From positions 13,906,110 to 13,970,109 of the forward strand of contig NC_133216.1 in NCBI RefSeq assembly GCF_040436345.1: a stretch of 64,000 nt of DNA. The letters run 5' to 3'. The notes below the pieces were generated by a model that worked only from the letters and a program-made list of their open reading frames with translations, did not search any database and had not been told where the DNA came from. Numbering within the stretch: position 1 is the stretch's first letter; the number at the start of each line of letters is the position of its first letter. This document shows positions 5,214 through 64,000 of this stretch, one piece after another. The position numbers and the translations under genes were made by a program. The stretch comes from Pagrus major. Taxonomy: Eukaryota; Chordata; Actinopteri; Spariformes; Sparidae.

Positions 5214-5625
5214 CTTGTGTGAATTCAATCTAATGCACCAAATTAAACATCATATATATATTACCTATTCATCAAGTTAGTTATTAAGTTACTTAATAAT
5301 TTAACTTTCCACAGAATACACTCAGTGTTAGATGCAGTCCTGATGAAGATACCTTCATGTTAAAAAAAAATGCCATTTTCATAGTCCAAGTGGGCCAATT
5401 TTGTCTCCTTCACTTTGTCTCACTTTTTAAAGTATATTTTTGAGAGCTGTTTGAAAGCAGTCATTAAACTACACCAGAGAGAAGAGATACAAAACACAGA
5501 TAACCTGACTCTTGAAGGCATCTTATCCAGGACCACATGAGGACCCCTGCAGCTCAGTGTGGGGCCCCTGGGAGCCCAAACACACTTGTGTCTGTGTTGG
5601 AGACACCTGGCCTGTGCACACTCAC

Positions 5626-6024
5626 CTCTCCTCCATGGCCATCAAAAACCCCAAATATGGACGGGTGACTCTTGTTGACGATGTCCGTGAGCACCTCGAA
5701 CCTGTCCTCCATGTGGTCTCGCCGGCCTTGGATGGAGTACACGGCCACGTTGTTGCTCTTGAACTCCCATGTCTTGGAGAACTCCGCGTCCAGGACGTCC
5801 AGTCCGCCGAACCGCTCGTTCTGCATCATCTCGGCCACTTTCCCCTTGACCATCTTGACCGCATCCCGGCTGGACTTGACGATGGTCTTCACTTCGTCCG
5901 TGTGGAAGAAGTAACTCCACAGAGCCAGGCTGATGCACAGCAGGAACAAGGTCTCCGGTCTGAGCAGAAAATAACGCATGATCCGACCTAACAGAGACAG
6001 CAGGGTCATTGTATCCTCTATCAT
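5626..6024 (-). CDS. ppm1l: Protein phosphatase PPM1L (PP2C family), first coding exon only
   Basis: This exon encodes residues 1-133 of a PP2C-type, metal-dependent Ser/Thr phosphatase. PPM1L is an ER-membrane enzyme known to act on ceramide transport (CERT) and stress-kinase signalling. Visible features are the MIEDTMTLL start shared with mammalian PPM1L, a hydrophobic anchor at about residues 24-40, the RRDHMEDR motif, and the metal-binding DGHGGE at residues 128-133. The exon ends in phase 0 at GAG|GTGAGT (donor bases 5625-5624). The first ATG (6022-6024) was chosen because the protein matches the mammalian start; a second in-frame ATG lies at 6007-6009. The family protein is about 360 residues. 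The other two thirds are not in the window, because 1-5625 reads as intron 1. The gene is head-to-head with nmd3. Confidence 0.95.
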
Positions 6025-6650: not shown

Positions 6651-8780
6651 AGGATTATGTTGTAATAAATGTTTTTGTAGATGCTCTTTTTTTTTTTTTT
6701 TTTTTTTTTAAATCAGTTTGGCATTTAAAATGTCTCAAAAAAGCCAAAAAGTACTGTACTTAAGAACAATTAATGTCAGATACTTTACAACTGTCCATAT
6801 AGGTGACTTTCACTTTTACCCAAAGTAATATTTTTAACATGATATCTTTACTTTACATACTCAAGTATGACTTTTGAGTATTTTATACAACACTGCAAAT
6901 AAGGCTGGTGGATATTATTGAGGAGGACTAACCTTTTTTTGCCTTTATGAGCAAACCTCCCTGCTCATAAGGGAGATAAGATGGATAAATTAGTAACTGG
7001 TTGAAATAAACACAAATTTCTGTATCATTTATTGACAGGGTTTGGAGAGTTACTTTTTAAAAATGTATTCCGACTCATTTATTGATTACCTGTTAAAAAA
7101 TGTAGTCAGTAACGTAATCCAAGTGTTACAATAATAGAGTAATGTAATTTGATTACTTTCAAAAAAATAACAAACAATAATAAAAACTTTGAATAACAGC
7201 TTGCACAGAGTAACTCATTTGAGATTGATAAGGTAGATTTATTTTTGCATATACAGTAGCACCTTTAAAACAGAAGTAATTCAAGGTGCTTTATATATAG
7301 GTAAGAATGCATTATAACATTTAGAAACACAATCAAATTACACAAAAATAGTACAAAATTAAAAATAGATAAAAATTCCCAAACTTTTTCCAGTTAGTTG
7401 TGTCAGAGCACCAAAAACTTTAGCAAGCAATTCATGAATAAAATTTACCATTTACCATCAATTCCACAAAGCTCTTGTGCATGTTGTTCATTCATAGTAA
7501 CACCTTGGTTGCATAGCACTAAGTATTCCCTCGCCTCCTGCCATTGTGTGTTTACTAAATAAGGCATGATCGTTCACGTGTGTTTTGAGATTAGATATTT
7601 CCGACAGCACTTGAAGGCATCTAGAGAGCTACCATACCACAGGTGCGCTTAAAAGACCATAGATAAATAATTTGTTTTAAAAAGTATGTATTTTTGTAAA
7701 ATTATGTTTTTATTTATGATAAATCATGATTATGTTATTATGTTAAAAACATAAAGGCCGAACTTTGGCAATGTTATTTTAACAAGTGACAAGTACCAAC
7801 TGCACTGAGTGTGTAACTGTCCGGGGGACTCCAGACACACAGGGGTCCCACAAGCCCTTGCATGATTACCTGAACTTGAAACCGTGTCTTGAGGAGGGTC
7901 TTTGCATTGCAACCTATTTCCTAAGGCCCTCCTTTTTCCAGCTAGTTTTGTGCTAATTAAGAAAACTCCAAAATAATGTGTGTAATCAAAACACCACACA
8001 GCAAACCTGGAATCATGTTCTATCATAGGAGTACTTGTGTTGCACAGAGAGTGGGACAGACAGAGGGCTTAATAGAGGCCAGCATCTCAATTTTGCCTCA
8101 GGCCCCTCAAGCAAGTTAAAATGTCCTTGGTTAGAGTGGATATACATGCAATTCTGGTTTTGTTAATGCATGTTGAGGTTAACAGATCTGCAGTTTGATA
8201 TGTGAGGGTCTTACAAGTTGATCTGCTTAAGACTGTTGTATATTACTCAGTAACACTTAACTCAAACAAAATTCCTCAAGCAAATCTATTTGATTCAGTC
8301 AAATATGTGCTAGACTGTCCTTGCTATAATATTATTGCTAAATTACTTGCAAATAGTTCCAGGCTGTGTGTTTTATTAAAACAACAACATGCACACATGG
8401 AGTCCTACCAAATTATTTGCTTTCCAAATCAAGGTCTTGTGTGTTCTTATGTGGTATGCAATTCTCAAAAATAATCATTCATTCACTTTCCTGACTTAGC
8501 CTGGACTATATAGCTGCAGTACTCTTAGACAAGCATATATTGTACGTGGCCTAATACATTTTGTATGACATGACCATAATACGTTTTCAATCTTTATTTA
8601 AAAACCTATTAAAATCTTTTTTAAAGTGGAATATGATAAAAGTCTTTTGTTTCTTCTGGTTTCCCAGCCCAACAGCTGTATTTATACTATTTCTGAGTCA
8701 TTTTGATTCGCTCATACCAATAACTTCATGCCAAATGTGTTTTTATTAGCCTTTTATCAGCCTTTTTTATTTAATTTGAA
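6651..8780. other. Intergenic, ppm1l to nmd3; no gene seen
   Basis: AT-rich spacer between the divergent ppm1l and nmd3 promoters. It includes a poly-T tract near 6688-6710, dispersed-repeat remnants of the ACTTAAGTAC / CTCAAGTA type (about 6750-6900) and of the AATCCAAGTGTTAC / TAATTTGATTAC type (about 7095-7170), and a fragment near 7225-7330 resembling a reversed LINE tail (CAAGGTGCTTTATATA). Nothing here supports a coding exon. Confidence 0.5.
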
Positions 8781-29701: not shown

Positions 29702-29886
29702 TGCGTCTGTGCCTCGACTGCAGTACCATTTTGAATGCAGGATTTGTAGTGTAGTGTTTTTACCTTGAGGCACTGCCTCTGTGAGCTCCCTCCCTCACCT
29801 TCACCTCTGTCTTTCTATCCTCTCCACATCTCTCCATCTCTTTCTTACGGCCACCACCTCCACCTCCCTTCCATCCAGCTTGCAAG

Positions 29887-30129
29887 ATGAACTTCAAGAA
29901 CCTTTTGGAGTACCTGGCCTGGCTGTACTACCAGTACCTGCTCATCACCGGCATCTATGTCCTGGAGCCGTGGGAAAAGTCCATCTTCAACTCCATCCTC
30001 TTCTCCGCCATCGCCATGGTGATCTACACCTCATATGTCTTTGTGCCCATCCATGTGCGGCTCGCGCTGGAGTTTTTCTCGGGGATCTTTGGCGGCCAGC
30101 CTGAGAGCACTATGGCACTCATGAACTAA
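29887..30129 (+). CDS. sptssb: Serine palmitoyltransferase small subunit B (complete, 80 aa)
   Basis: Small ER-membrane activator of the SPTLC1/SPTLC2-3 enzyme, which makes long-chain bases from serine and acyl-CoA. The whole protein is in one exon that starts at acceptor TCCATCCAG (29877-29878), 8 bases before the ATG. Visible features are the conserved WLYYQY near residues 12-17, LEPWE at 26-30, and a second hydrophobic span at about 33-53. The residue before LEPWE is Val25, as in subunit B, whereas subunit A has Met there; this residue is known to set acyl-CoA preference. The C terminus is a few residues longer than human (76 aa). Its position between nmd3 and otol1 fits SPTSSB. A candidate AATAAA lies at 31935-31940, but the 3' end is not settled. 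Confidence 0.95.
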
Positions 30130-41823: not shown

Positions 41824-44800
41824 ATGAGGATTATCTCCTGTCAGTCGTCACTTGTGGCTGTAGTTGTTCTTACACTCACTGTGGTGTCCTGCGTTGAATC
41901 GAAGACCACACAAAAACCGAAGTACCAGTACACCAAGAAGCCAGTCCCTCAGATCACTGTGTACAACCCAGCCACCACCAGCATGCCCAAGACTCACAAG
42001 GTAGTGCCGACTGTAAAACCCCATCCGCTGCCCCCCACGGAGAGGACTACCTATCCGAGCCACATCTCTCCAAAGTACTACACAGAGAGCCCTGAGGCCC
42101 CTGGTGTCGGCCCTGAGAACTACACCCTAGATTATAATGAGTGCTACTTCAACTTCTGTGAGTGCTGTCCACCTGAGAGGGGCCCCAGGGGGCCAAAGGG
42201 AGACAGAGGCCTAGAAGGTAAGATTGCAATAAAGAAAAATGCTTTTAATTTAATCAATTCATTTGTTTTTATTAAAACTTTACCTTTTGTTGCTTATTCA
42301 GGGCCATCAGGTGACAGAGGCCTTATAGGAGCAGCTGGTTTACCAGGACCACCGGGAGTGAGCGGTCCGATGGGGTTTAAAGGAGACAAGGGTGAATATG
42401 ATACACACTTAAAATTGCTGCTTACAAAATGTTTTATCATCATTTATAATGAGAATATAGAGCCATTAGATATGGGGAGACAAAGTAACAATACACTTGA
42501 GTACGTCAATAAGTGAATTTCTAAATGTTCAAAGGCTTTCATGTTCAGTCCAGTACAAAATTAGCTTTTACAAGTCAAGGCACATTTATTTATTTAACAG
42601 TTTCATAACTGAAGTGCTTCATAAATTAAACAGGTGAAAGCATAACAAAGAAATGATTAAAAAAAACAAAAACAATAAAAGCACGCAGAGTAAAAACAAT
42701 ACGACAAACTTACAAATACAATTTGATATAAAAGAAAATTAATCAGAAAGCGTTGTGAAACAGGATTTAAAGTAGTAAGCTTTGTCTCAAGTCTTAGCTC
42801 TTCTGGCAGATTGTTCCACATTTGAGAAGTATTGCAGCTAAACGCAGCTTCAACGGGTTTATTTTTGACTCAGGGAACAGCCAATAATCCAGAACTGATG
42901 GGGATTGAGTATAATCTGTTCACTTTTAAAGGAGACATTCTGCTCATTTTCAGGTTCATAATTTTATTTTGGGTAACTACTAGAAAAGGTTTACATGCTT
43001 TAATGCTCAATAAACATCAGTTTTCTCATTCTGTCCAGTGCTGCAGCTCTGTATTCCCCCTCTGTCTGAAACACTCTGTTTTCGCTCCTGTCTCTTTAAG
43101 ACCGGCCTCTCCTGAATACCCAGTCTGCTCTGATTGGTCAGCTCACGCAAGCCTGAGCCAGCACAGCTAATAACAATAGGGCAGCTGTGCTAAATCAATT
43201 TGTATGTACCAAACTAGCTGCCAGGCATAAATTATGCAAACATGTGACATGGTGACATAGTGTGATGTCACAGAGTCAGGTGAATTAAAGGTGGGACTAC
43301 TGACGAGGCGTTTCAGGAGCAGTGTTTTCTGTAGGAGAGAGGAGTTTCTGTTGGTGCAGACTTTGACCTTTTTAACTTTCAAGAGCTTTTACATGCACAA
43401 TAACCTATATAACACACTGAAGGAAAGGAAAAAAATGAAAAAGCATAATAGGTCTCCTTTAAAATGTGTTGATAAAGATTTGTTTGTGCATATACTCAAC
43501 ACCTCCGGTCATTGGTGCCCCCTGATCCCTTAGGCCTCTGAGGTTGTGCCCTGTAATCCTGTTAAATATATTGTTCTTCTGCACTTAGCACTAGTTAAAA
43601 AATCTCTGGTTGTTTTTGACCAAATACCTTAATATCAGTTATGACAATACTGTAGAGATGACTATTGGTACTTTCACAAAATATTAACACAGTAGGATCT
43701 TTGATGAATAATCATGCAAGTATGATAAACACTTATACGTCATATCACGATAGAAGGAGATCCAAAACGTAGGATGATATAAAGTCCTAATAGCTTATGT
43801 TAGATTTTGAGAGTTGATATGAACTTTATCATGTTCATTTCTCAGGGGAAAGAGGTGACAGAGGAGGCAGTGGGACAGCCGGTCCACCAGGAGTCCCAGG
43901 GAAACCAGGACAAAAAGGTGCCAACTTGTTCAGGTGATTGTTGAATTATTTTATAATGTTGCCAGACTTCAATAGCTCTGACATTGTTTCTTTTACCTTG
44001 CAGGTGATGTTGGATCAAAAGGTGAGAAAGGTGTAATAGGGTTGCAAGGTGTCAAAGGTGTTAGTGGCGAGAAAGGAGAGCCAGGCCAGAATGGGACTGC
44101 TGGTGAGAAAGGAGAACCAGGAAAAGAAGGTCCAGCTGGACCTCCAGGAGTGGCTGTTGAATCAGGGCCTAAGGGAGACAAGGGAGATAAGGGGGAGTGT
44201 GGCACATTCGGGGAGCGAGGACAAAAAGGTGAGCGAGGGGATTCTGGGCCTCCTGGCATCCCCGGAGCGATGGGCATCCCAGGAATAAACGGCAAGCATG
44301 GCGCCCCAGGTCCTGTAGGTGTCCGAGGGGATCAAGGACCTCCTGGACCACAAGGAGAACCAGGGGTTAGAGCATCTCAGGGACCACAAGGCGTAAGAGG
44401 GATGATTGGGCCCAAAGGGGACAGAGGTTACCCTGGGATGAGAGGTGACCGGGGCTTTCGTGGATTCAAAGGTGCAAAAGGATCAGGGGTTCCTCAGAAA
44501 CGCTCAGCCTTCAGTGTGGGTATCTCTCCAAGAAAGTCCTTCCCTCCCTCTGGCTTCCCAATTCGCTTCGACAAAGTCTTCTACAACGAGGAGAACCACT
44601 TCAATGTCACGTCCAACAGCTTCACATGCGTCCACGCTGGGGTTTACATCTTCTCCTTCCACATCACCGTACGCAATCAGCCACTGAGAGCCACACTGGT
44701 GGTGAACGGGTCACGGCGGGTAAGGACACGGGACTCTCTGTACGGTCAAGACATCGACCAGGCGTCCACTTTGGTGGTGCTGCGGCTGGCAGTGGGCGAT

Positions 44801-44902
44801 CAGGTGTGGATGGAGACCTTCAGAGACTGGAACGGGGCGTATGCCAGCAGTGAGGATGACAGCATCTTCTCTGGATTCCTGCTTTACTCAGACAAGCCCT
44901 GA
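41824..44902 (+). CDS. otol1: Otolin-1 (complete, 4 coding exons, 484 aa)
   Basis: Secreted short-chain collagen of the inner ear that scaffolds otolith/otoconia matrix. Coding exons: 41824-42217, 42302-42391, 43846-43917, 44004-44902 (1455 nt). The ATG at 41824 follows an acceptor (CTCTTCTCAG to 41810) and begins a clear signal peptide (about 1-22). Then come a Thr/Pro-rich segment (23-100), a Cys cluster (C107, C112, C114, C115), Gly-X-Y repeats from residue 120 to about 347 spread over all four exons, and a C1q/TNF-like domain from about 352 to the end. An upstream in-frame ATG at 41728 lies in intron. The donors at 42392 (GTGAAT) and 43918 (GTGCCA) are weak but keep Gly-X-Y register. The gene sits next to sptssb, as in other vertebrates. 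Similar C1q-collagens exist, but the size and locus fit otolin. Confidence 0.93.
42560..42920 (-). repeat. Interspersed repeat remnant in otol1 intron 2
   Basis: Contains GTGCTTCATAAATTAAACAGG, GCTCTTCTGGCAGATTGTTCC and GCAGCTTCAACGGGTTTATTTT type sequence familiar from dispersed fish repeats, probably read in reverse. It abuts MITE family D copy 2. The family is not assigned. Confidence 0.45.
42926..43462 (+). mobile_element. MITE family D, copy 2 (complete, 537 bp)
   Basis: Begins TTAAAGGAGACATTCTG and ends TAATAGGTCTCCTTTAA, inverted termini bounded by TTAA. It lies in otol1 intron 2. The interior matches the worn copy in the nmd3 intron at 10810-11277. Confidence 0.8.
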
Positions 44903-47080: not shown

Positions 47081-50066
47081 TTATGGAGAATCTGGACACA
47101 TGTCACCAGACCCCTCGGGCATGTCACCACATGCTCCAGACATGTCACCAGACTCTCCAGACATGTCGACATTGTCCTCGGGCATGTCACCAGATTCCTT
47201 CATTATATCAACAGTTTCTGGGATAGTAGTCTTGTTGAGAGACTGGGCTGTGGATGGCACAGTGCTTGGTTCTGGCTGTGAAGATGGAGGACCAGAGGTG
47301 GGGGTGCTCGCTTCAGTAGTCTGAATAAAAGTAGGAGTAGCAGTGGATGGGTGAGGGGAGAGCAGCGCTGCTGTTGGCTCAGATGCAGGAGGCAGGGAGG
47401 GGTCTGGGGATGAGATTGGAGGAGCTTGAGTCCATGGACCTCTGGGATGAATTAGAGGAGCTCGAGTCCATGGATCTCTGGGATGAATTGGAGGCTTTGT
47501 CATCTGTGGTTCTATTGGGTCAGAGACAAGTTGGCCTCGTCAATCAGGAAGAGGACAAGGCTTTAAACTTTAAGTCGAGGTAAACAGCAGGTTACATTTA
47601 CTTCTCAGTACCTGTCTCTTGTCCAAAGCTTTTGGGCTCACTCCACCTGATGAGGCCCAACTCAGGCACCCTGACCTTGCAGGTGTACCAGCCCGGAGTC
47701 TGTCTGACCAGATCATGGTTCTCAGAGGTCGCTGTTCCCAGTTTCATGTTATTCCTAAAGAAATAGTAGTGTACAGGAGGTGCAGGAGCAGGGGCATTGT
47801 ATTGGTGGTGGCAGTTGAGCCGCATCATTTTTGCTGGAATCAAGTCGCCGACGGTAACAATCTCCAAAATTGGCTCCGACAGGACCTCTGAGACAGATCA
47901 ACAGGAGAGAAGACATTAATAACATGCTGGAATAATTTCTGGAGAATATTATATTATTGTATGTTGGCAGTTAATTAAAAATATAGGGATCGTTTGACAT
48001 TTTGGGAAATTCTATCCACTTTCTTGTTACATGAGAAGATTGATAACACTCTTGTGCTTGTACACAAAATATGTAGTTATGGTCAGCAAGCTGCAGCTTA
48101 GCTTAGCTTAGCATAAAGACTGAAAACATTGCGACATAGTGAGCCTGGCTCTGTACAAAGGTAACAGAATCCTCCTACCAGCACCACTAAAACCCACAAA
48201 TTGTTGTTTTTACACTGGAATTTTAGTACAGAATATATAATAAAACAAGATGTAACATGCTAATAAGCAGAGATGAGGACTTGGATTTGGAAGTTAAAGG
48301 ACTCGTGACTTGACATGAGACATTATGACTCATTCAAAATTTCAGTATAGTTTTTTTGTTGGGAATATTTTTTGATTAATAAGAAATTAAGTAAATTAAT
48401 AAAATGAATAAACTAATATATAAATATATATAAATATATATATATATCAATCTTCTCATTTTATTCTTGTCAAGAAAGAGAAGAAGTGCATTTCCCCAAA
48501 AGTCTAGCCGTTCTTTCAACATGTGATCTGCAACTACAACCAATCACCACACATAAACTCACCTACAACCTGCAGTAGAGTGTCAACTGAGATTACAGAG
48601 TGTGTACGCCTCCCTATGTCCCAGGAAGCTCTGCAGGAATACATTCCTCGGTCTGCCACAGTCAAGTGGGTCAGGCTGAAACGTGGGTTGAGGCCGTTTT
48701 GTCTCATAACTTCAACGCCATCTTTGTACAGAATCACCTGACGAAGCTGGAGGGTGCCTCGGACACGGCATGTGACCTCTAAGGACTCTCCGACAAGGGT
48801 GGGAAGAGGTGGGACTTGCAGGATAGCCCACCCTCCTGAACAAACACCGCAGAAAAGTTACCTCAAAATAATATCTTGTGAACTTATCTTAGTAGTCACA
48901 GTTAAAATAACAAAACACAATTGCACAGGAAGCATCACAAGAGTTCAGTAATTTCCAATATTAAGTGTTAAAGGAAAAGTTCATCCAAAAAGGAAAGTTC
49001 AGTCATTATCTAGTCACCTTCATGCCGATGGAAAGACAGGGGAAGACTGATGGTCCTCAAGACATTTCTGGAGACTCACAGCACAACAACTGAAGCAGAT
49101 GGGGGCTTGTTTAAAAATGTAAAGAACAACTGAAAAAAATAACATAAAATGGCTCCTGTAAATAACATCTTTTCAAATTAATTTGGGATCTTGGGTCTTC
49201 CGGAGACTTGGATTATGCCAGATGAGCTGAATGGAGCCATTATACATTTTTTTCTGTTGTTTTCTGCGTCTGATGTAAATAATATCTTTTCAAATCAACT
49301 TAAGAGCTCCAGAAATGTTTTGTGGACTACAAAACTTCACCTGACATGGGGGTGTGTAGATAATGACTGTTTTTTTTCCATTTTTGGGTTCCAACCTTTC
49401 CTTTAATATGTGAGTCAAGGAGATTTCTAATAATACTGTTAAACAAGATCTTACCATCGACGTTGATCTCTACAGGCAGACTTTGACTGGTGTATATATC
49501 TCCCACCACTGAGTCCCTCACTCCCTGGCAGTAATATTTCCCACTCTGTTTAACATGGGCTCTCCACAGCACAAAGTGCTCCCCACGCTGTGGGAGCTTC
49601 TCAGAGCCCCTGAACCACAGGTAATCCCAGGTGGACCTGTTATCAGAAACGCTGCATTTCAGCCGAACACTCTCCTCAGAGAAGATTCTCGAATCCCCTG
49701 ACACGATCTCCACCACAGCTCTGAATGAGGCCTTGTGCGGGGCTATTGAGACACATAGATACAGGTTTGTGAGGGAGGAATATCTTAATCATCTGTATAC
49801 TTGCTGAAATACAAAGCTATCATATTAATTCTACAGATACAGTATGCTTTCAAATATCAGCATTATGCTATGCCAAGCTGTTTCATATCTAGAATTTAAT
49901 TATAGGAATATTTGGTACATACCCCCGGGTACAACAAGCTGTGGTAGTGTTGAAAGAACTGAAAAAGAAAAAATTTAATTAACTTAAACAACCATAATGT
50001 TAGATTTGTGAGATATTGTGACTGAAATAAAGAAAACTCACCAAGGAGGAAAAGGACCGTGTTCAT
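47081..50066 (-). CDS. Fc receptor-like protein, three Ig domains, probably secreted (6 coding exons, 442 aa)
   Basis: Immunoglobulin-superfamily receptor of the Fc gamma receptor / FCRL group. Exons in coding order: 50066-50042, 49958-49923, 49742-49455, 48835-48563, 47887-47612, 47511-47081 (1329 nt), all internal junctions in phase 1. The signal peptide (residues 1-20) is split over two small exons, a hallmark of Fc receptor genes. Each Ig domain fills one exon: 21-116 (VRLKCSV/KYYCQG), 117-207 (VTCRV/MYSCRA) and 208-299 (LNCHH/WYTCKV). The last exon is Pro/Thr/Ser-rich, with a 12-residue repeat (PLIHPRGPWTQA type) and an acidic GDM repeat, and ends without a membrane or GPI segment. A soluble three-domain Fc receptor is known from catfish, so secretion is plausible. 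Ligand class is not deducible. A missed alternative membrane exon is possible. Confidence 0.82.
47095..47200 (-). repeat. In-frame 21-bp minisatellite in the Fc receptor-like last exon
   Basis: Units reading CATGTCACCAGA on the plus strand recur at roughly 21-base spacing (near 47099, 47119, 47140, 47161, 47182). In the protein they give SGDMSGE-like heptads. Confidence 0.8.
47420..47495 (-). repeat. 36-bp tandem repeat, two units, in the Fc receptor-like last exon
   Basis: GAGTCCATGGACCTCTGGGA and GAGTCCATGGATCTCTGGGA lie 36 bases apart, with like flanks. They encode the paired 12-residue units ending DPWTRA and GPWTQA. Confidence 0.85.
47995..48272. mobile_element. MITE family A, copy 2 (right end missing), Fc receptor intron
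   Basis: Left end GACATTTTGGGAAAT, then ACTTTCTTGTTACATGAG, TTAGCTTAGCTTAGCATAAA and GCCTGGCTCTGTACAAAGG. The right half is absent. It lies between the second and third Ig-domain exons. Confidence 0.75.
48968..49406. mobile_element. MITE family B, copy 3, Fc receptor intron
   Basis: Starts TTAAAGGAAAAGTTCATCC and ends GGTTCCAACCTTTCCTTTAA, bounded by TTAA. The usual ATGCCGATGGAAAGACAGG block is present. It lies between the first and second Ig-domain exons. Confidence 0.8.
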
Positions 50067-54090: not shown

Positions 54091-57000
54091 TCAACCAGCA
54101 AACACCTGTGGGGTCAGTGGTGGTGGCAGGAGCTCATTCTCAACATTATCAGCGTCGATGGCTGATGATGCTGCCGCCGCTGTCCCACTGGCTGCGGTAT
54201 CAGTCAGGTTCTGTGTCTCTGGTGGAAAGCTCTCCAGAACACTCTGCACCTTCTGCTCCACTTCGTCCGTCCAGTCAATGAGGTCGTTCTCCAGCTGGCG
54301 AGCCTTCTCCATGACCCGGTCCTGCCTTTCCCCGAGCCCTGTGAGCAGGTCTAGCCGTTTGTGGACCTGGTTAAGAGCTGCGCTGCCTGGGGAGCAGGAG
54401 GAAGCTCCGGTTGCCTGTGGCCAGTGAGGGGACGCCTGGCCCGACATGTAGAGCTCAAACTCCTCGGAGCTTAGGTTCAGAGACTGGCCGTCCAGCTTCT
54501 CGATGAAGGCCACCGCACAGCACTGGGAAGAGGGGATGTGGGAGGTCATTAAGACAAAAGCCTCAGCTATGGATAACATCAGTCTGTGACATCAGATTCA
54601 AAAACATTTTGTGACATTTTGCATTTAATGGGACAGTCGAGGCAGACGTTCTAGCAGGATACTCCACATTTACTCAGTTTTAAAACTACTTAGATCTTTT
54701 AATGCCAATTGGAGTAGTGAAGACGTAGTGAAATGCGATGGAAGAAATAACAGAAATAATAGAAACACACCGCACATCAGTCCAATACAATTCAACAGCA
54801 TCTAAACTTCTTCGAAAACATATAAATATAGAGACTTGGAGACAAAAACAGATAAATCACATAAATGCAAGCAAGCAGGTACTGATTTTCTCACCAGATT
54901 GGTGAAGTAGTAACCATCCTCTCCAGTCATGAGTCTGCTCGGGTTGCAGAAGCGGGTGATGTACTGGATGTTGGACTGCAGTCTCGGAGGGTTTGCTTTC
55001 AGCACAATGTAGATGAGCGTGGGGAGGAAGTCATCCGCAGACGCAGCCTCTTTCTTGCTGACTTTGATGGCGTTGAAGATGTGCTTGCTGCAGCGAGTGA
55101 TGCACGCCAGCTTTTCCTTGGGCACACGCTTCGAATCCATTTCAATCACATCTGAAATGATGCAGAGGTTTGAGAAGATGACAAACTGTTTATCAAAAAT
55201 ATCTTAGTGCATCTCTCACGCCAAGATAAAAATAAACCTATTGAGACTTACCTGTGATGGCTTTGACTACACTGTCAGACACCTCAGCGATCTCCTCATC
55301 TACAGGAACACACAGCATCTCAATCGTGACCCAATGCAAGGCTCTGTAACAGAAAGCAGTAGATACCTCTCAGATGTAGTCATTTCACCTGTCATTTTGT
55401 TTCCTTGTGCTCAGAGGGAACGCAGACAGATTAATGACGAGCAATTAAAGCATTGTTAGAACTTTTGCAAACCTGATTCTCTTCTGAATGGCCAGGTCTT
55501 TCTTCTCATCGTCTGTGGTCTCAGGACAGAAGACTTCCTTGTAGAGACGAGTCATCATGTACTTCTCTACTTCATCCATTACACTCTCCACATGATCTGA
55601 CGAACCTATGGAACAGAGGCACAAAGAACAAAGACACAGAGCAGACGTTAGTGATGTTCACTGATATCCACTACTCTTCTTGAGTGTAAGAGTTAAGCGG
55701 TACCTTTGAACTGAGTGTGGAGGCGATCAGAGAGGTTCTGGTAGAAGTCCTGCACACACTCTGACAGCTCATCAGCACCCATGTCCTAAACAAGGAATTC
55801 AGATCAGATTTCACTGAATTTCAGCTTAAAATGTACACAATGGTAAAAGATATCACAATTAAACTCAAATATGACAACACCATATATTGTGCACAATTTA
55901 GATTTATTACTAGACAATTGTAAATTGATAACTAGTCAATATATAACAAACTGATTTTAGAAAAACATTTGCAATGACTAAAGGAGCATATTTCCTCATT
56001 ATTTATTTATAAAAACATCATCTGAAACAACAATGTGCGACAGTCAGCATTTCACAGACATAAATGTTAAAGCTGTTACACAATGTCACACAAAAAATAA
56101 AAGCTCCATGTTTTTAGCATTCGAGTTGAAGCAGTGACACACTACAAATAAAGAATTTAAGCAAAAGCAATGTGTTAACATGATGTCTGGACCTTCATAC
56201 AACTATTCATAGATAAGACTTGACTGGTTCCTGCATGCTCGTTTCACCCACAAACACACCAACACATGATGATTAATCCACTTTAACTCACCCGCTTATA
56301 GACCATGCTCTCAGTGAAGGCCCTGCACTGTTTGAAGATTTCCCTGCCAGACTTCAGAGGCTTGAGGAAATCAATGAATTCACGCGTAGCATGGTCACTG
56401 TCCACAGAGGAATGCCGGCTTGCAGAGGAGCTGGGGCTTGGGCTGGACTGCGCGTCAAAGGGAGAAGCATCTGGAGGAAGAATCAGAATGTTGCTTTAAT
56501 CAATACTACAAACCCTCGTATAGTATTTTCTTGTAATACCCTTTGACACCTGCAATAGTCGTGCTATGTGTTTCAGTCTTATGTCCTCATTTAACCACAT
56601 TGTGTCGAGGCTACAAACCAAGGGAAGTGGTTGAACTAAAAAAACATTATTGAGCAATAGTTTCGATGACCTCAGTCTGGTTTAGTTTCTAAATGTTATT
56701 CCAGTAAATCAGGTCACCAGACCAAGTTCCGCACAAATGCATGCTCAGGCACTTCAATTTGATAACGATGCTGTTAAATCTCAACGAAAACACAGCAATA
56801 AAGACTTTCAAAATAAAGATTTCATAAACAACGACTCATCTCTTACAGTTGTCGATGTCCAATTGCATGTACCTTTTTTTGGTGGTGTTTTTGAGGAAGG
56901 AGTAAAAAACTTTGTGACTGTGTGGACTTTGCTGGACTTTTCCTTCGTTTTTCTTTCCTCAAACTTGCTGAAGGGTGTGATGGTAGACTGTGATTGGGCC

Positions 57001-60179: not shown

Positions 60180-63100
60180 ATGGCAGGTAAGATCTGTGGT
60201 CCTTTAAAGCAACAGTACAGGCACAAAACTCAAGTTATAAGTTATATATGAGTCGAGAAAAAAGCAACTGTGAGGCTATCAGGGCGTTTCCCCATGAAGC
60301 GCACAGCTGCAGGAGAAGCAGGAAACAAACTATTTAGAGTTTAAGATGAACCATCCTGCAATCAGGCAAATATCAGCAAAGATGTTCACACAACACAATA
60401 ATGTCACAGCCTTTGAGTTTTCGTCAGATTGTCTTGATACTGTCGGTAAATCGTTTGCTTTTAAAATATAATACAGTTTAGTTTCACTTTGACTCGTGGC
60501 TCACATCTGAAGTCGTATGTGGCAAGAAAAGTAAAAAAAATGACTGCAAATTTCAAACTGAGATAGTTTAAATATTTATCTAATCTTCCTCACAAGGTTA
60601 AATCAAAATTCTAAATCTAAATGTTAAATCTTGATGTTTAATGTTTAATGTTAAATGTTAATCTAAATCTTAAACATTAAATCTAAATGTTAAATCTAAA
60701 TCCAGATGCTAAATGTAATTCTGTTAGTTACTAGCTGAGTTCTATTTATAAAGAGTTATTTCTTCATGAAGATTGATTTACATGCTGTTTGACCCAAAAG
60801 GTTGAAACCTGTTTTTTTTTATGTAACCACAAGCTTATGTTGCAGCCTATCAACACAGATTAGAGATTAATTTAATTGAAATTAAGTTTTACTGACTTAT
60901 TTACTAAAGACAATATATGTTAAGTACTGGCATTGGTCGAAAGGGCGAACACTGTACTTATTTAAATTTTGAGGAACTTGAGTATTTCCTTTTCATGCTA
61001 CTTTATACTTCCTCACACTTCAGAGGCAAATATTGATGTTTTTACTACAGTACATGTCCTGGTAGCAGTCGTTACTATGCAGATCATACAAACAAAACAA
61101 CATATATGATGCTTTGTGTTATGGACCAAATAACCAGTCGGTTTATAAAGTTGGTACAATTAACTCAGTTACGATATTAAAATGTAAAATACATAATTAA
61201 TGGTGATCCTATGTACTTATTTATAGGCTACATCTATGTTATAATGTAAAACTTTAAAGGGGATTGTTCTGTAAGATAAGTACTTACCTAATACTCTTTT
61301 CTTCATAATGATTTCTTTAGATAAGAAGCTTTCAGGAGTGAGTTTGTTGTTAATGTGTCTTGTTCATCTTCCTCTTCCCTTGAATAACCTTAACATGAGA
61401 AGTTTAATCTCCACGCTTCATATTCTTTCTTTTAGATGAGCTCTCCATGGTGAGGAGAGATTTTGTGTGTAGGGTGTCCAAACCAGTTATCCTTCAGCTC
61501 CTGGACCACATTTTACAAGACCACATTTTGCATTATGAGGAGTACGACTGTATACGTTGCGACAGAACCACACCAGACCAGGCCCGACGTCTCATTGACA
61601 TGGTGAGAAGAAAAGGAGACCAAGCCAGCAGGATGTTTATCTCTCACATTCAACGCGTAGACCCTTTTCTTTATTCTGTACTGGGTCTGTCCCGTGGCCA
61701 ACCTGCTCCACCAGGTGAGTCTCATTTTGATTCAAACTGATATCCTGGATACTGCCATGAATACAGGTGTGTACACAAAATGAAGTACATAATTTTTAAC
61801 AGAAGTGTTTTGCTGTTCCCAGCTGCAGAGCCCCAGATGGAGGAGGAAAGGTCGACCTTGCTCATCTCTCAAACCAACGCAGCAGCTATCATTGCATCCG
61901 TGGTTGAGAAACTGAATGAAATATACGTTAGTAATTCATAAAAGCAATATCAAACATACCATATGGTCTTAACCGATAGATTTACCCTCAGCTATTTGCC
62001 AGTAGTGGAAATAATGGGGAAAACTAGTTTACTGCATCAAGGGTTTAATGTTATTTTTAGGATTGTGAATATAACGCGTTAATTTCGATACATTTAACAT
62101 GTGTTTTTCAGAGGAAACAAGATGAAACCAGCAGGAAGATTATCGCTAACATTAAAAGCAAAGATCCTACACTTTACTCTAAACTGTCCAGTGGTCAAAC
62201 TGCTCTGTCAGGTGAGCTGACACATTTCATCCTATTTTTTATTCAAACCGCTATTACACATAAGAAGTTCATCATTTTAACAGAAATGTTTTGCTGTTCC
62301 CAGCTACAGAGCCCCAGAGGGAGCAGGAATGGTTGACCTCGCTCATCTCTAGCCCCATGATGTCATCTATCATTGTGTCAGTGGTTGAGAAACTGAATGA
62401 CATAAATGTTAGTAATTCATAAAAGCCATTTCAAAGTTGACTCCTGCACATCCCAGTTCACCTAGCCTGTTTAACTTGTTTAACCTGCTGTATCGTAGGC
62501 AACTGGACTTGTTTCAGTTTCTTGAAGACGTTTCACCTCTTGTTGGCCCTCCTGTGAAGGAATGTATCTATGTCAAACGTGAACAACTGTCTTTGCAGTA
62601 ACAGTGGAGGTGGCCTAAGACATTACTTATTACTTATCAGCCACCTTCAATGCAGTACTGAGTTTCCTCTCCAATCAGCTTAACGACCATTCACACCTGG
62701 GCTCACCTAGCCCCAGCAACCCATATGAAGGCCGGTTGAGTCAACAACCCACAAGTGGCCCTTACGACTCTGAAACTCTCACACGTGTCCTTAGCGACTC
62801 TGTAAGGACACTCCCACACAGAGTTTAAAAGCCTGCAACTCCCCTCCAGTTAGTTAGAACTGAATAAGCCTCTTGGATGAGAAGTGAGACGTCTTCAAGA
62901 AACTGAAACAAGTCCAGTTGCCTACGATACAGCACTTAGAAGTACCATGACCTGGATGCCTGAGAACCTTCATCAACATGTTCCTTTAAATTTGTTTTTC
63001 AGATTTACCCTGTGACCAAAGAGTCCATTGAGAATCGTGTGGCCCTGCTAATCACTAATATCAAGTTTACTAATAGGAGACTAAACAGAGACGGTGCTGA

Positions 63101-64000
63101 GAGAGATGAGAAAAACATGAAGAAACTGCTCGAAGGTCTGGGTTACGAGGTGGTGAAACACCCAAACCTCACAGCAAAGGTACTTTATAAAAAGGGAGAT
63201 AAAAAAAACAACATACTTTTGTGTGGTTGATTTGGTGACACAGTCACTGATATTTAATATTTTTGGTTTTACAGGCCATTGATGCTGCTATCAGAGACTT
63301 CTCTGAACATCCGAAACTCAAAGAGACAGACAGTGTGGTGGTGGTTATCATGTCTCACGGGAAAGAGGGAGTTGTCCTCGGTGTCGACTGGAAAAAAGAG
63401 ACATCTGGTGATGAGAAACCAGATGAGTTCCCCATCAACGACATTTACAAACACTTGGGCCCAGAGAAATGTAAAGCGCTGATGGACAAACCCAAGATCA
63501 TCATCATCAATGCCTGCAGAGGAGGTGACGCTCATTTACTCTTACATGTATAGATATAAGAAAAACAACAAACATGAGCAAGGATTTCAGGCTCTGTATT
63601 GAAAATATGCCAAATGCGTTTCAGGGAAGGACGGATCAGTATTTGTTAAAGATGGCGCAAACGCAGCTGAACCCTGTAACGATGTGGTCCAGCCGGGTCC
63701 ATCCTCGTCTGCTGGTGAACAAAGGGGCAGTTCTTTGCGACGTGTGCACAGAGAAAAAGACTTCATTTATTTCCTCTCCTGCACCCCTGGTGAGTTAACT
63801 TAAATATTATCAGATATTATACATGGTCTGGGTGAATTCTCGATTCTAATTGGCTGGAGGGTGTCAATTAAGTTTTGATATACAGACACGTAGTTACATT
63901 ATGTAATAGAACTAAATACATCTTCTGTTTCTGTGTGTTTTCACTGCAGATACTGTCTCATACAGAGACCCTGTTAAGGGGTCCTGTCTGATCCAGTTTG
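60180..64000 (+). CDS. casp1: CARD-containing inflammatory caspase (caspase-1-like), 5' part, runs off window
   Basis: Cysteine protease of inflammasome signalling. Exons in window: 60180-60186, 61436-61714, 61823-61926, 62112-62211, 62304-62407, 63003-63179, 63275-63524, 63625-63789, 63950-64000+, all in phase. The first exon is only ATGGCAG, giving the MADE start typical of caspase-1. The CARD covers about residues 3-90. Residues 96-198 form a linker containing a tandem duplication: exon 4 resembles the C-terminal half of the CARD and exon 5 repeats exon 3. The p20 domain starts near 199 (IYPVTKES), with catalytic H285 (MSHG) and C338 in NACRG, where QACRG is usual. The p10 part begins around VHREKDFIYF with SYRDPVKGS. 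The 3' end is not in the window. Fish have several caspase-1-like paralogues, so the symbol is provisional. Confidence 0.88.
60590..60720 (+). repeat. Degenerate tandem AT repeat (TAAATCTAAATGT type) in caspase intron 1
   Basis: Units of 11-13 bases built from TAAATCT, AAATGT and their mirror TTAATGTTTAATG recur about ten times with small changes. Confidence 0.75.
61795..62435 (+). repeat. Tandem exon duplication inside the caspase gene
   Basis: Exon 3 (61823-61926) and exon 5 (62304-62407) are both 104 nt and align throughout. Their flanks align too: TTTTGCTGTTCCCAG before each, and GTTAGTAATTCATAAAAGC after each. The offset is 481 bases. Exon 4 (62112-62211) aligns with the 3' half of CARD exon 2, so the duplicated unit appears to be the CARD C-half, an intron and the linker exon. 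Confidence 0.85.
62485..62935. mobile_element. Inverted-repeat element (about 450 bp) in caspase intron 5
   Basis: TGCTGTATCGTAGGCAACTG at 62486 pairs with its inverse CAGTTGCCTACGATACAGCA ending at 62934. The arms extend over about 50 bases to CTTGAAGACGTTTCACCTC / GAGACGTCTTCAAG. From memory, sequence like this is abundant in fish genomes and may extend a little past 62935. No clear target duplication was seen and the family is not assigned. Confidence 0.75.

Follow-up and report, generated by a model that had tools for sequence, protein, structure and literature searches.

Several duplications of prodomain parts have been described in caspases that carry a CARD. For human CASP5, the available excerpt of one source (PMC11117641) describes an exon 2 that encodes a partial CARD and is alternatively spliced, and macaque CASP5 is predicted there to contain two CARDs. 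The same excerpt reports a fused CASP1/CASP4 gene in the dog, from which one- and two-CARD mRNAs are produced, and a title cited in it refers to a prodomain duplication in dog caspase-12. Exon duplication, linker exon included, has been given as the origin of CASP16, and caspases, like their partners, are stated to have undergone duplications of the DED and of the CARD on several occasions (excerpt of PMC12198278). In fish, the sea bass caspase-1 gene is presented as having 8 exons and 7 introns and as being single copy by Southern blot (excerpt of PMC3511578). Round goby has been credited with 18 caspase-1 copies (excerpt of PMC6988351), and turnover of the cluster in fish is therefore to be expected. 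The linker that connects the CARD to the protease is, in human caspase-1, the site where cleavage has been associated with the end of activity (excerpt of PMC7025033).

The window analysed here, a stretch of 64,000 nucleotides from Pagrus major, contains a caspase-1-like gene, termed copy A, in which the last part of the CARD exon and the linker exon that follows it are repeated in tandem ahead of the protease exons. Among the matches listed in the open-licence PMC literature, no report of a duplication of this type in fish caspase-1 was found. Exon and CARD duplications in mammalian caspases are already known; copy A differs from these by the site after the CARD, the content, namely CARD helices 5-6 together with a linker exon, and by the fish lineage. 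Similarly to CASP5, copy A is an inflammatory caspase gene with a partial CARD on its own exon besides the full CARD; however, as CASP5 is described in the excerpt, its extra piece precedes the CARD exon, whereas that of copy A follows both CARD and linker exon, comprises helices 5-6 only and is accompanied by a second linker exon. The dog CASP1/CASP4 and caspase-12 genes resemble copy A in that prodomain parts are duplicated in CARD caspases, although the excerpt presents CASP1/CASP4 as a gene fusion involving whole CARD exons and not as a partial intragenic copy. With CASP16 the likeness lies in exon duplication inside a caspase gene with a linker exon included, the difference being that, as the excerpt gives it, what is duplicated there is the protease domain together with the inter-subunit linker and not the linker next to the CARD. 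In sea bass, caspase-1 likewise combines CARD and protease; it is presented as a single-copy gene whose 8 exons equal the number in a neighbouring gene, copy C, and not the 10 of copy A, and the four spliced isoforms of the excerpt vary beyond the active site and are alike in the CARD linker. Because sea bass caspase-1 also has 8 exons, copy C is taken as the plain layout and copy A as derived.

Copy A starts at 60180 (+) and extends beyond the end of the window, its model being completed using flanking sequence (Table 1). The gene has 10 exons, is otherwise intact, shows AG/GT at every expected border and maintains a single open frame, which encodes 475 aa with exons 4 and 5 and 407 aa without them. 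Exons 6-10 correspond to the protease. With the copy A protein only up to exon 8, one Gly missing, as query, this portion was recognised as a Peptidase C14 domain (PF00656, 116.1 bits), closest to caspase-1 and -4, and the best PDB match was caspase-1 (E = 7e-38). Alignment with human caspase-1 places SHG and ACRG in copy A, and we take the His of the former and the Cys of the latter to be the catalytic residues. The complete pentapeptide is NACRG, in place of the QACRG of copy C and human caspase-1, and for this reason copy A is named 'caspase-1-like' only. The Asn of NACRG is aligned with Gln283, which is among the three residues of the S1 pocket (excerpts of PMC5322338 and PMC11236938), so the substrate preference of copy A may differ.

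Table 1. Exons and associated elements of copy A in window coordinates
Feature	Position	Strand	Evidence or remark
Exon 1	60180..60186	+	ATGGCAG, start codon, GT donor, in frame; 7-nt first exon likewise in copy C
Exon 2, complete CARD	61436..61714	+	Pfam, AlphaFold, Foldseek
Source part inside CARD exon: helices 5-6 and tail	61609..61714	+	Matches exon 4
Exon 3, first copy of the linker between CARD and protease, phase 1 to 0	61823..61926	+	Homologous to copy C linker exon, 64/89 sites
Intron 3	61927..62111	+	First 115 nt 84% identical to intron 3 start of copy C
Exon 4, duplicate of CARD helices 5-6, phase 0 to 1	62112..62211	+	AG acceptor, CAG/GTGAGC donor (exon/intron)
Exon 5, second copy of the linker, phase 1 to 0	62304..62407	+	Identity with exon 3 at 81/104 sites
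MITE-like element with 55-bp inverted ends, in intron 5	62486..62934	+	Inverted repeat 62486-62540 / 62880-62934, 96%
Exon 6, protease domain start	63003..63179	+	Gene model
Exon 7, p20 with active-site NACRG	63275..63524	+	Gene model
Exon 8, inter-subunit linker and p10 start	63625..63789	+	Gene model
Exon 9	63950..64059 (window cuts at 64000)	+	Gene model with flanking sequence
Exon 10 with stop	64167..64298 (beyond window)	+	Gene model with flanking sequence

Copy A belongs to a cluster of three related copies. A search of the genome with caspase exon 7 gave two matches among the six candidates scored, corresponding to copies A and C; the same exon used as query confirmed 0/99 pattern matches in bacterial and archaeal contigs and 0/13 in viral ones, a result that is uninformative on fish relatives. 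Copy C lies beyond the window (69881-74446 in window coordinates), its start being 9.7 kb after that of A, and has the ordinary caspase-1 layout of 8 exons, encoding 397 aa. Between the two, at 66843 to about 68224 and also beyond the window, copy B begins 2.5 kb past the stop codon of A; it has an ATGGCAG first exon and a stop-terminated CARD exon, followed by a linker-like exon that also reaches a stop. Copy B could be an inhibitor gene or a pseudogene, and its CARD-only layout adjoining caspase-1 genes recalls that of COP, INCA and ICEBERG, which are primate CARD-only proteins. No second copy of the linker or of the CARD piece was found in B and C with tblastn (E up to 0.05) or blastn (E up to 1e-3), and a duplication that A would share with B and C was rejected on these grounds.

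The repeat itself is clear from a blastn self-comparison, in which 62112-62435 matches 61609-61954 at 73% over 349 gapped columns with E = 6e-51, a value that excludes a chance match. In ungapped families the copies of the CARD part are offset by 503 and those of the linker part by 481; the exons gained are exon 4, of 100 nt, and exon 5, of 104 nt. A first-pass annotation of the window had described exons 3 and 5 as matching and both 104 nt long, with the phase pattern kept and about 68 residues added to the protein; the gene model bears out each of these points, the two linker exons running from phase 1 to 0 at a distance of 481 and the two protein forms differing by exactly 68 residues. The off-diagonal at 481 that it proposed to look for by self-alignment is also present in the linker, the CARD part falling on 503. 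The similarity extends to non-coding sequence: introns 2 and 4 are homologous (70/78 aligned sites, z = 20 vs 200 shuffles) and introns 3 and 5 match over their first 28 bases (26/28, counted by eye), so the copied unit was genomic DNA including introns. Moreover, the 19-base intron 3 start common to both copies has 2 occurrences in the genome searched (786 Mb, 25 contigs), both of them here. An assembly artefact or stutter was rejected because the copies diverge at 10-27% of aligned sites, depending on the segment.

The CARD encoded by exon 2 is recognised by Pfam over nearly the whole profile (PF00619, 70.7-70.8 bits, profile 7-84 of 85) and is modelled by AlphaFold with six helices (mean pLDDT 85), the top three Foldseek matches of the model being ICEBERG, the NLRC4-CARD filament and the caspase-1-CARD filament. 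In the modelled CARD piece the similarity to the duplicate sets in at residue 59, near the end of helix 4 at 60 (helix 5 starts at 62), and exon 4 is therefore assigned to helices 5 and 6 with the tail. Its 33 residues are equivalent to these two of the six helices in the CARD exon model and, when modelled alone, are predicted by AlphaFold to form two helices (mean pLDDT 84). A Pfam search with exon 4 gave zero matches, even at E up to 10, and a second CARD domain, which would make a two-CARD protein, was rejected given the missing Pfam match and the presence of 2/6 helices. The first-pass annotation had aligned exon 4 with the C-terminal half of the CARD exon and deduced an added half-CARD module; the alignment with the 3' part holds, 'half' is an overstatement, and the module gives way to the last two helices of a CARD. 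Its interpretation is supported in part, through the tandem repeat, the phases and the 68-residue gain; the longer linker may, as it suggested, alter oligomerisation or self-cleavage. The annotation had overlooked a possible swap of exon 5 for exon 3, the finding of copy C without a detected duplicate, and the partial and double CARDs of mammals.

Another CARD-like trace lies in intron 1, where a motif at 61316-61345 weakly resembles the start of the CARD exon (z = 4.6). A similar CARD-start motif occurs in intron 1 of copy B (near 7933 of the flanking stretch L003, whose 6953 corresponds to window 66843), and an exact-pattern search detected none in copy C. A mini-exon at 61321-61337 was rejected as coding because its GT donor would give a phase unfit for exon 2 (assessed by eye).

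A segment that begins midway in the CARD exon, at the turn between helices 4 and 5, takes in the linker exon and reaches into intron 3 was duplicated in tandem inside copy A, and the duplicate supplies two extra exons with splice sites and open frame retained. In the working that we propose, the ordinary CARD would keep its recruiting role, and the duplicate, included alternatively, would lengthen the tether that joins CARD and protease, its 68 residues forming two extra CARD-type helices and a second linker, a reading that we regard as evenly balanced between right and wrong. With exons 2 and 6 kept, three forms are in frame, E2-E3-E6, E2-E5-E6 and E2-E3-E4-E5-E6, and the junctions E3-E5 and E4-E6 are out of frame. 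At their donors, scored with a donor frequency table, and at their acceptors, exons 4 and 5 fall within the range of the other exons of copy A. On balance it appears more likely than not, with moderate confidence, that exons 4 and 5 are included in some transcripts, and such inclusion in the mRNA could affect recruitment or self-cleavage.

The same frame relations would also accommodate mutually exclusive linkers, exon 5 replacing exon 3 (E2-E5-E6) so that two 407-aa proteins are produced and exon 4, in frame only with both linker exons, becomes a by-product. Exons 3 and 5 are homologous with equal length and phases, E2-E5 and E5-E6 are in frame and E3-E5 is not, and tandem duplicated exon substitution is a known class (excerpt of PMC9741552), defined like this pair by nearby homologous exons of equal phase, although in copy A a third exon, exon 4, lies between the two and a use in substitution is putative. 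An exchange of this kind would leave the good acceptor and donor of exon 4 superfluous, and since exons 3 and 5 each have a donor of modest score (74 and 78) no bias between them is predicted; we consider it unlikely.

Alternatively, the mRNA could be E2-E3-E6 throughout, with exons 4 and 5 as passengers that have not yet decayed, and if the two exons are unused the locus would be merely another partial duplication in a changing immune cluster. The open frame is weak evidence of use, since in simulations of neutral drift the frame survives in 47-54% of cases for the exon-4 part and in 52-70% for the linker part, which makes an open frame probable by chance alone. In addition, dN/dS does not point to purifying selection at exons 4 and 5: the ratio for exon 4 is 1.97 against copy C (33 codons) and 0.87 against exon 2, and that for the linker is 1.43 between exons 3 and 5 and 1.11 between exon 5 and copy C, the other parts of the A/C pair ranging over 0.56-0.96 with an overall value of 0.81. 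The insertion of a 449-bp MITE-like element in intron 5 also points towards an unused relic; this element has many relatives in the genome, and in the 40 of 2470 first-look candidates that were scored most match query bases 69-449 at 87-90%.

On the other side, besides the good splice signals of exons 4 and 5, indels in the copied exons are few and in frame relative to the intron, with one of 6 nt in exon 4 compared to its source and, between exons 5 and 3, none or two compensating 1-nt gaps at the loosest gap cost, vs 4-6 in the adjoining 92-nt intron, mostly not multiples of 3. The lower frequency in the exons has a binomial P of 0.005-0.07, by alignment, and of 0.15 for copy-specific indels counted by eye. 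Moreover, in the comparison with copy C, nonsynonymous change in exons 4 and 5 taken together is higher than change in the introns (42.7/147 vs 12/93, i.e. 0.290 vs 0.129, nominal P = 0.004), which is unexpected for a neutral relic and with which neutral decay fits poorly, with the caveat that this is 1/9 overlapping comparisons with nominal P, that the alignment of exon 5 with copy C is gappy, and that the introns of A and C look partly homogenised. For the same exons the nonsynonymous-vs-synonymous test gives P = 0.32, and over the nine comparisons P < 0.05 is reached in 5/9 for nonsynonymous vs intron and in 0/9 for nonsynonymous vs synonymous. The evidence for selection on the duplicate is thus weak, and we judge an unused relic to be rather unlikely. 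Relative-rate counts were 6 A-specific vs 4 C-specific changes in the protease part with human as outgroup (P 0.75), and for the CARD 13 in A vs 7 in C with the C18 CARD as outgroup (P 0.26) and 19 vs 6 with copy B (P 0.015); a faster A is supported by one of these three counts, because only the copy B outgroup gives significance.

If the longer tether is made, it would change the Asp residues available between CARD and protease. In the short form E2-E3-E6, D78 in the CARD is followed by no further Asp until D160 in the protease domain, the long form adds D134, D148 and D196, all from exons 4-5, and the linker of copy C contains D92 and D127. In human caspase-1 the linker cuts associated with termination of activity are at D103 and D119 (excerpt of PMC7025033). 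For the recombinant sea bass enzyme, cuts after E86 and D108 are described (excerpt of PMC3511578), and the cut after Glu 86 means that absence of Asp does not exclude cleavage. Because the linker Asp come only with exons 4-5, we infer that exon choice could alter tether length and self-release. A bolder proposal, which we hold to be very improbable, would be a splicing switch for self-release, in which the short form would stay tethered to the inflammasome and exons 4-5 would supply the linker Asp, so that copy A, with its NACRG, might act as a sister enzyme released by exon choice. The doubled linker and CARD end in A, beside a C in which no copy was detected, provide a ready comparison of linker length and cleavage sites with the behaviour of inflammasome proteases.

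At aligned intron sites the divergence between the two units of A is about 10-20%, varying with the gap cost, and that between A and C about 10-18%; since these values are similar, the duplication dates from about the time of the A/C split. Compared with B and C, exons 3 and 5 have in common a 15-nt insertion and 8 informative sites, the alternative groupings having 2 and 0, and the CARD part gives 3, 2 and 3 informative sites for the three groupings; a joint AU test rejects no tree (0.83, 0.23, 0.10), and the RELL proportion alone excludes the third. Exon 4 is 78% identical to copy C vs 73% to exon 2 over the same stretch, and intron 4 retains a stretch common to copy C and absent from intron 2. 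Both features would be consistent with exon 4 being derived by gene conversion from a C-like copy and not from the adjoining CARD exon, an origin that is compatible with the other readings of the locus and also agrees with the patchy A/C similarity, with intron 6 differing at 1/71 compared sites. However, the 15-nt insertion carried by exons 3 and 5 is absent from B and C, and the trees do not separate the cases; we regard a conversion origin of exon 4 as decidedly improbable. As a separate observation, exons 6-7 with intron 6 (63003-63524) are far more alike between A and C (73182-73701 in copy C) than the CARD exons are, as gene conversion predicts.

For the right-hand breakpoint of the copied unit, the exon 4 acceptor (30 bases before the exon) scores 25 against the exon 6 acceptor, with the next of 15 at 20 and exon-internal sequence at 6. 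When 91 bases around the exon 4 border were compared with six targets, only the end of intron 5 before exon 6 beat all 200 shuffles (28 vs 25). Because the exon 4 acceptor most resembles that of exon 6, the breakpoint may correspond to the 3' splice site before the protease exon, a location that the resemblance suggests and does not prove.

Outside the cluster, the C18 CARD, used above as outgroup, is caspase-1-like and lies on another chromosome; a search of the surrounding 20 kb gave no caspase exon. Nine further CARD matches fall within about 54 kb of C19, 8/9 of them listed with open frames >600 aa. Within the window, other frames with a Pfam match are those at 29785-30129 (+), serine palmitoyltransferase small subunit, 43982-44902 (+), collagen and C1q, 49327-49788 (-), Ig domain, and 54802-55203 (-), VPS9, and a PP2C phosphatase-like frame at 5554-6024 (-) has a match below the cut-off. 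The other genes of the window presumably include PPM1L, SPTSSB, otolin and RABGEF1.
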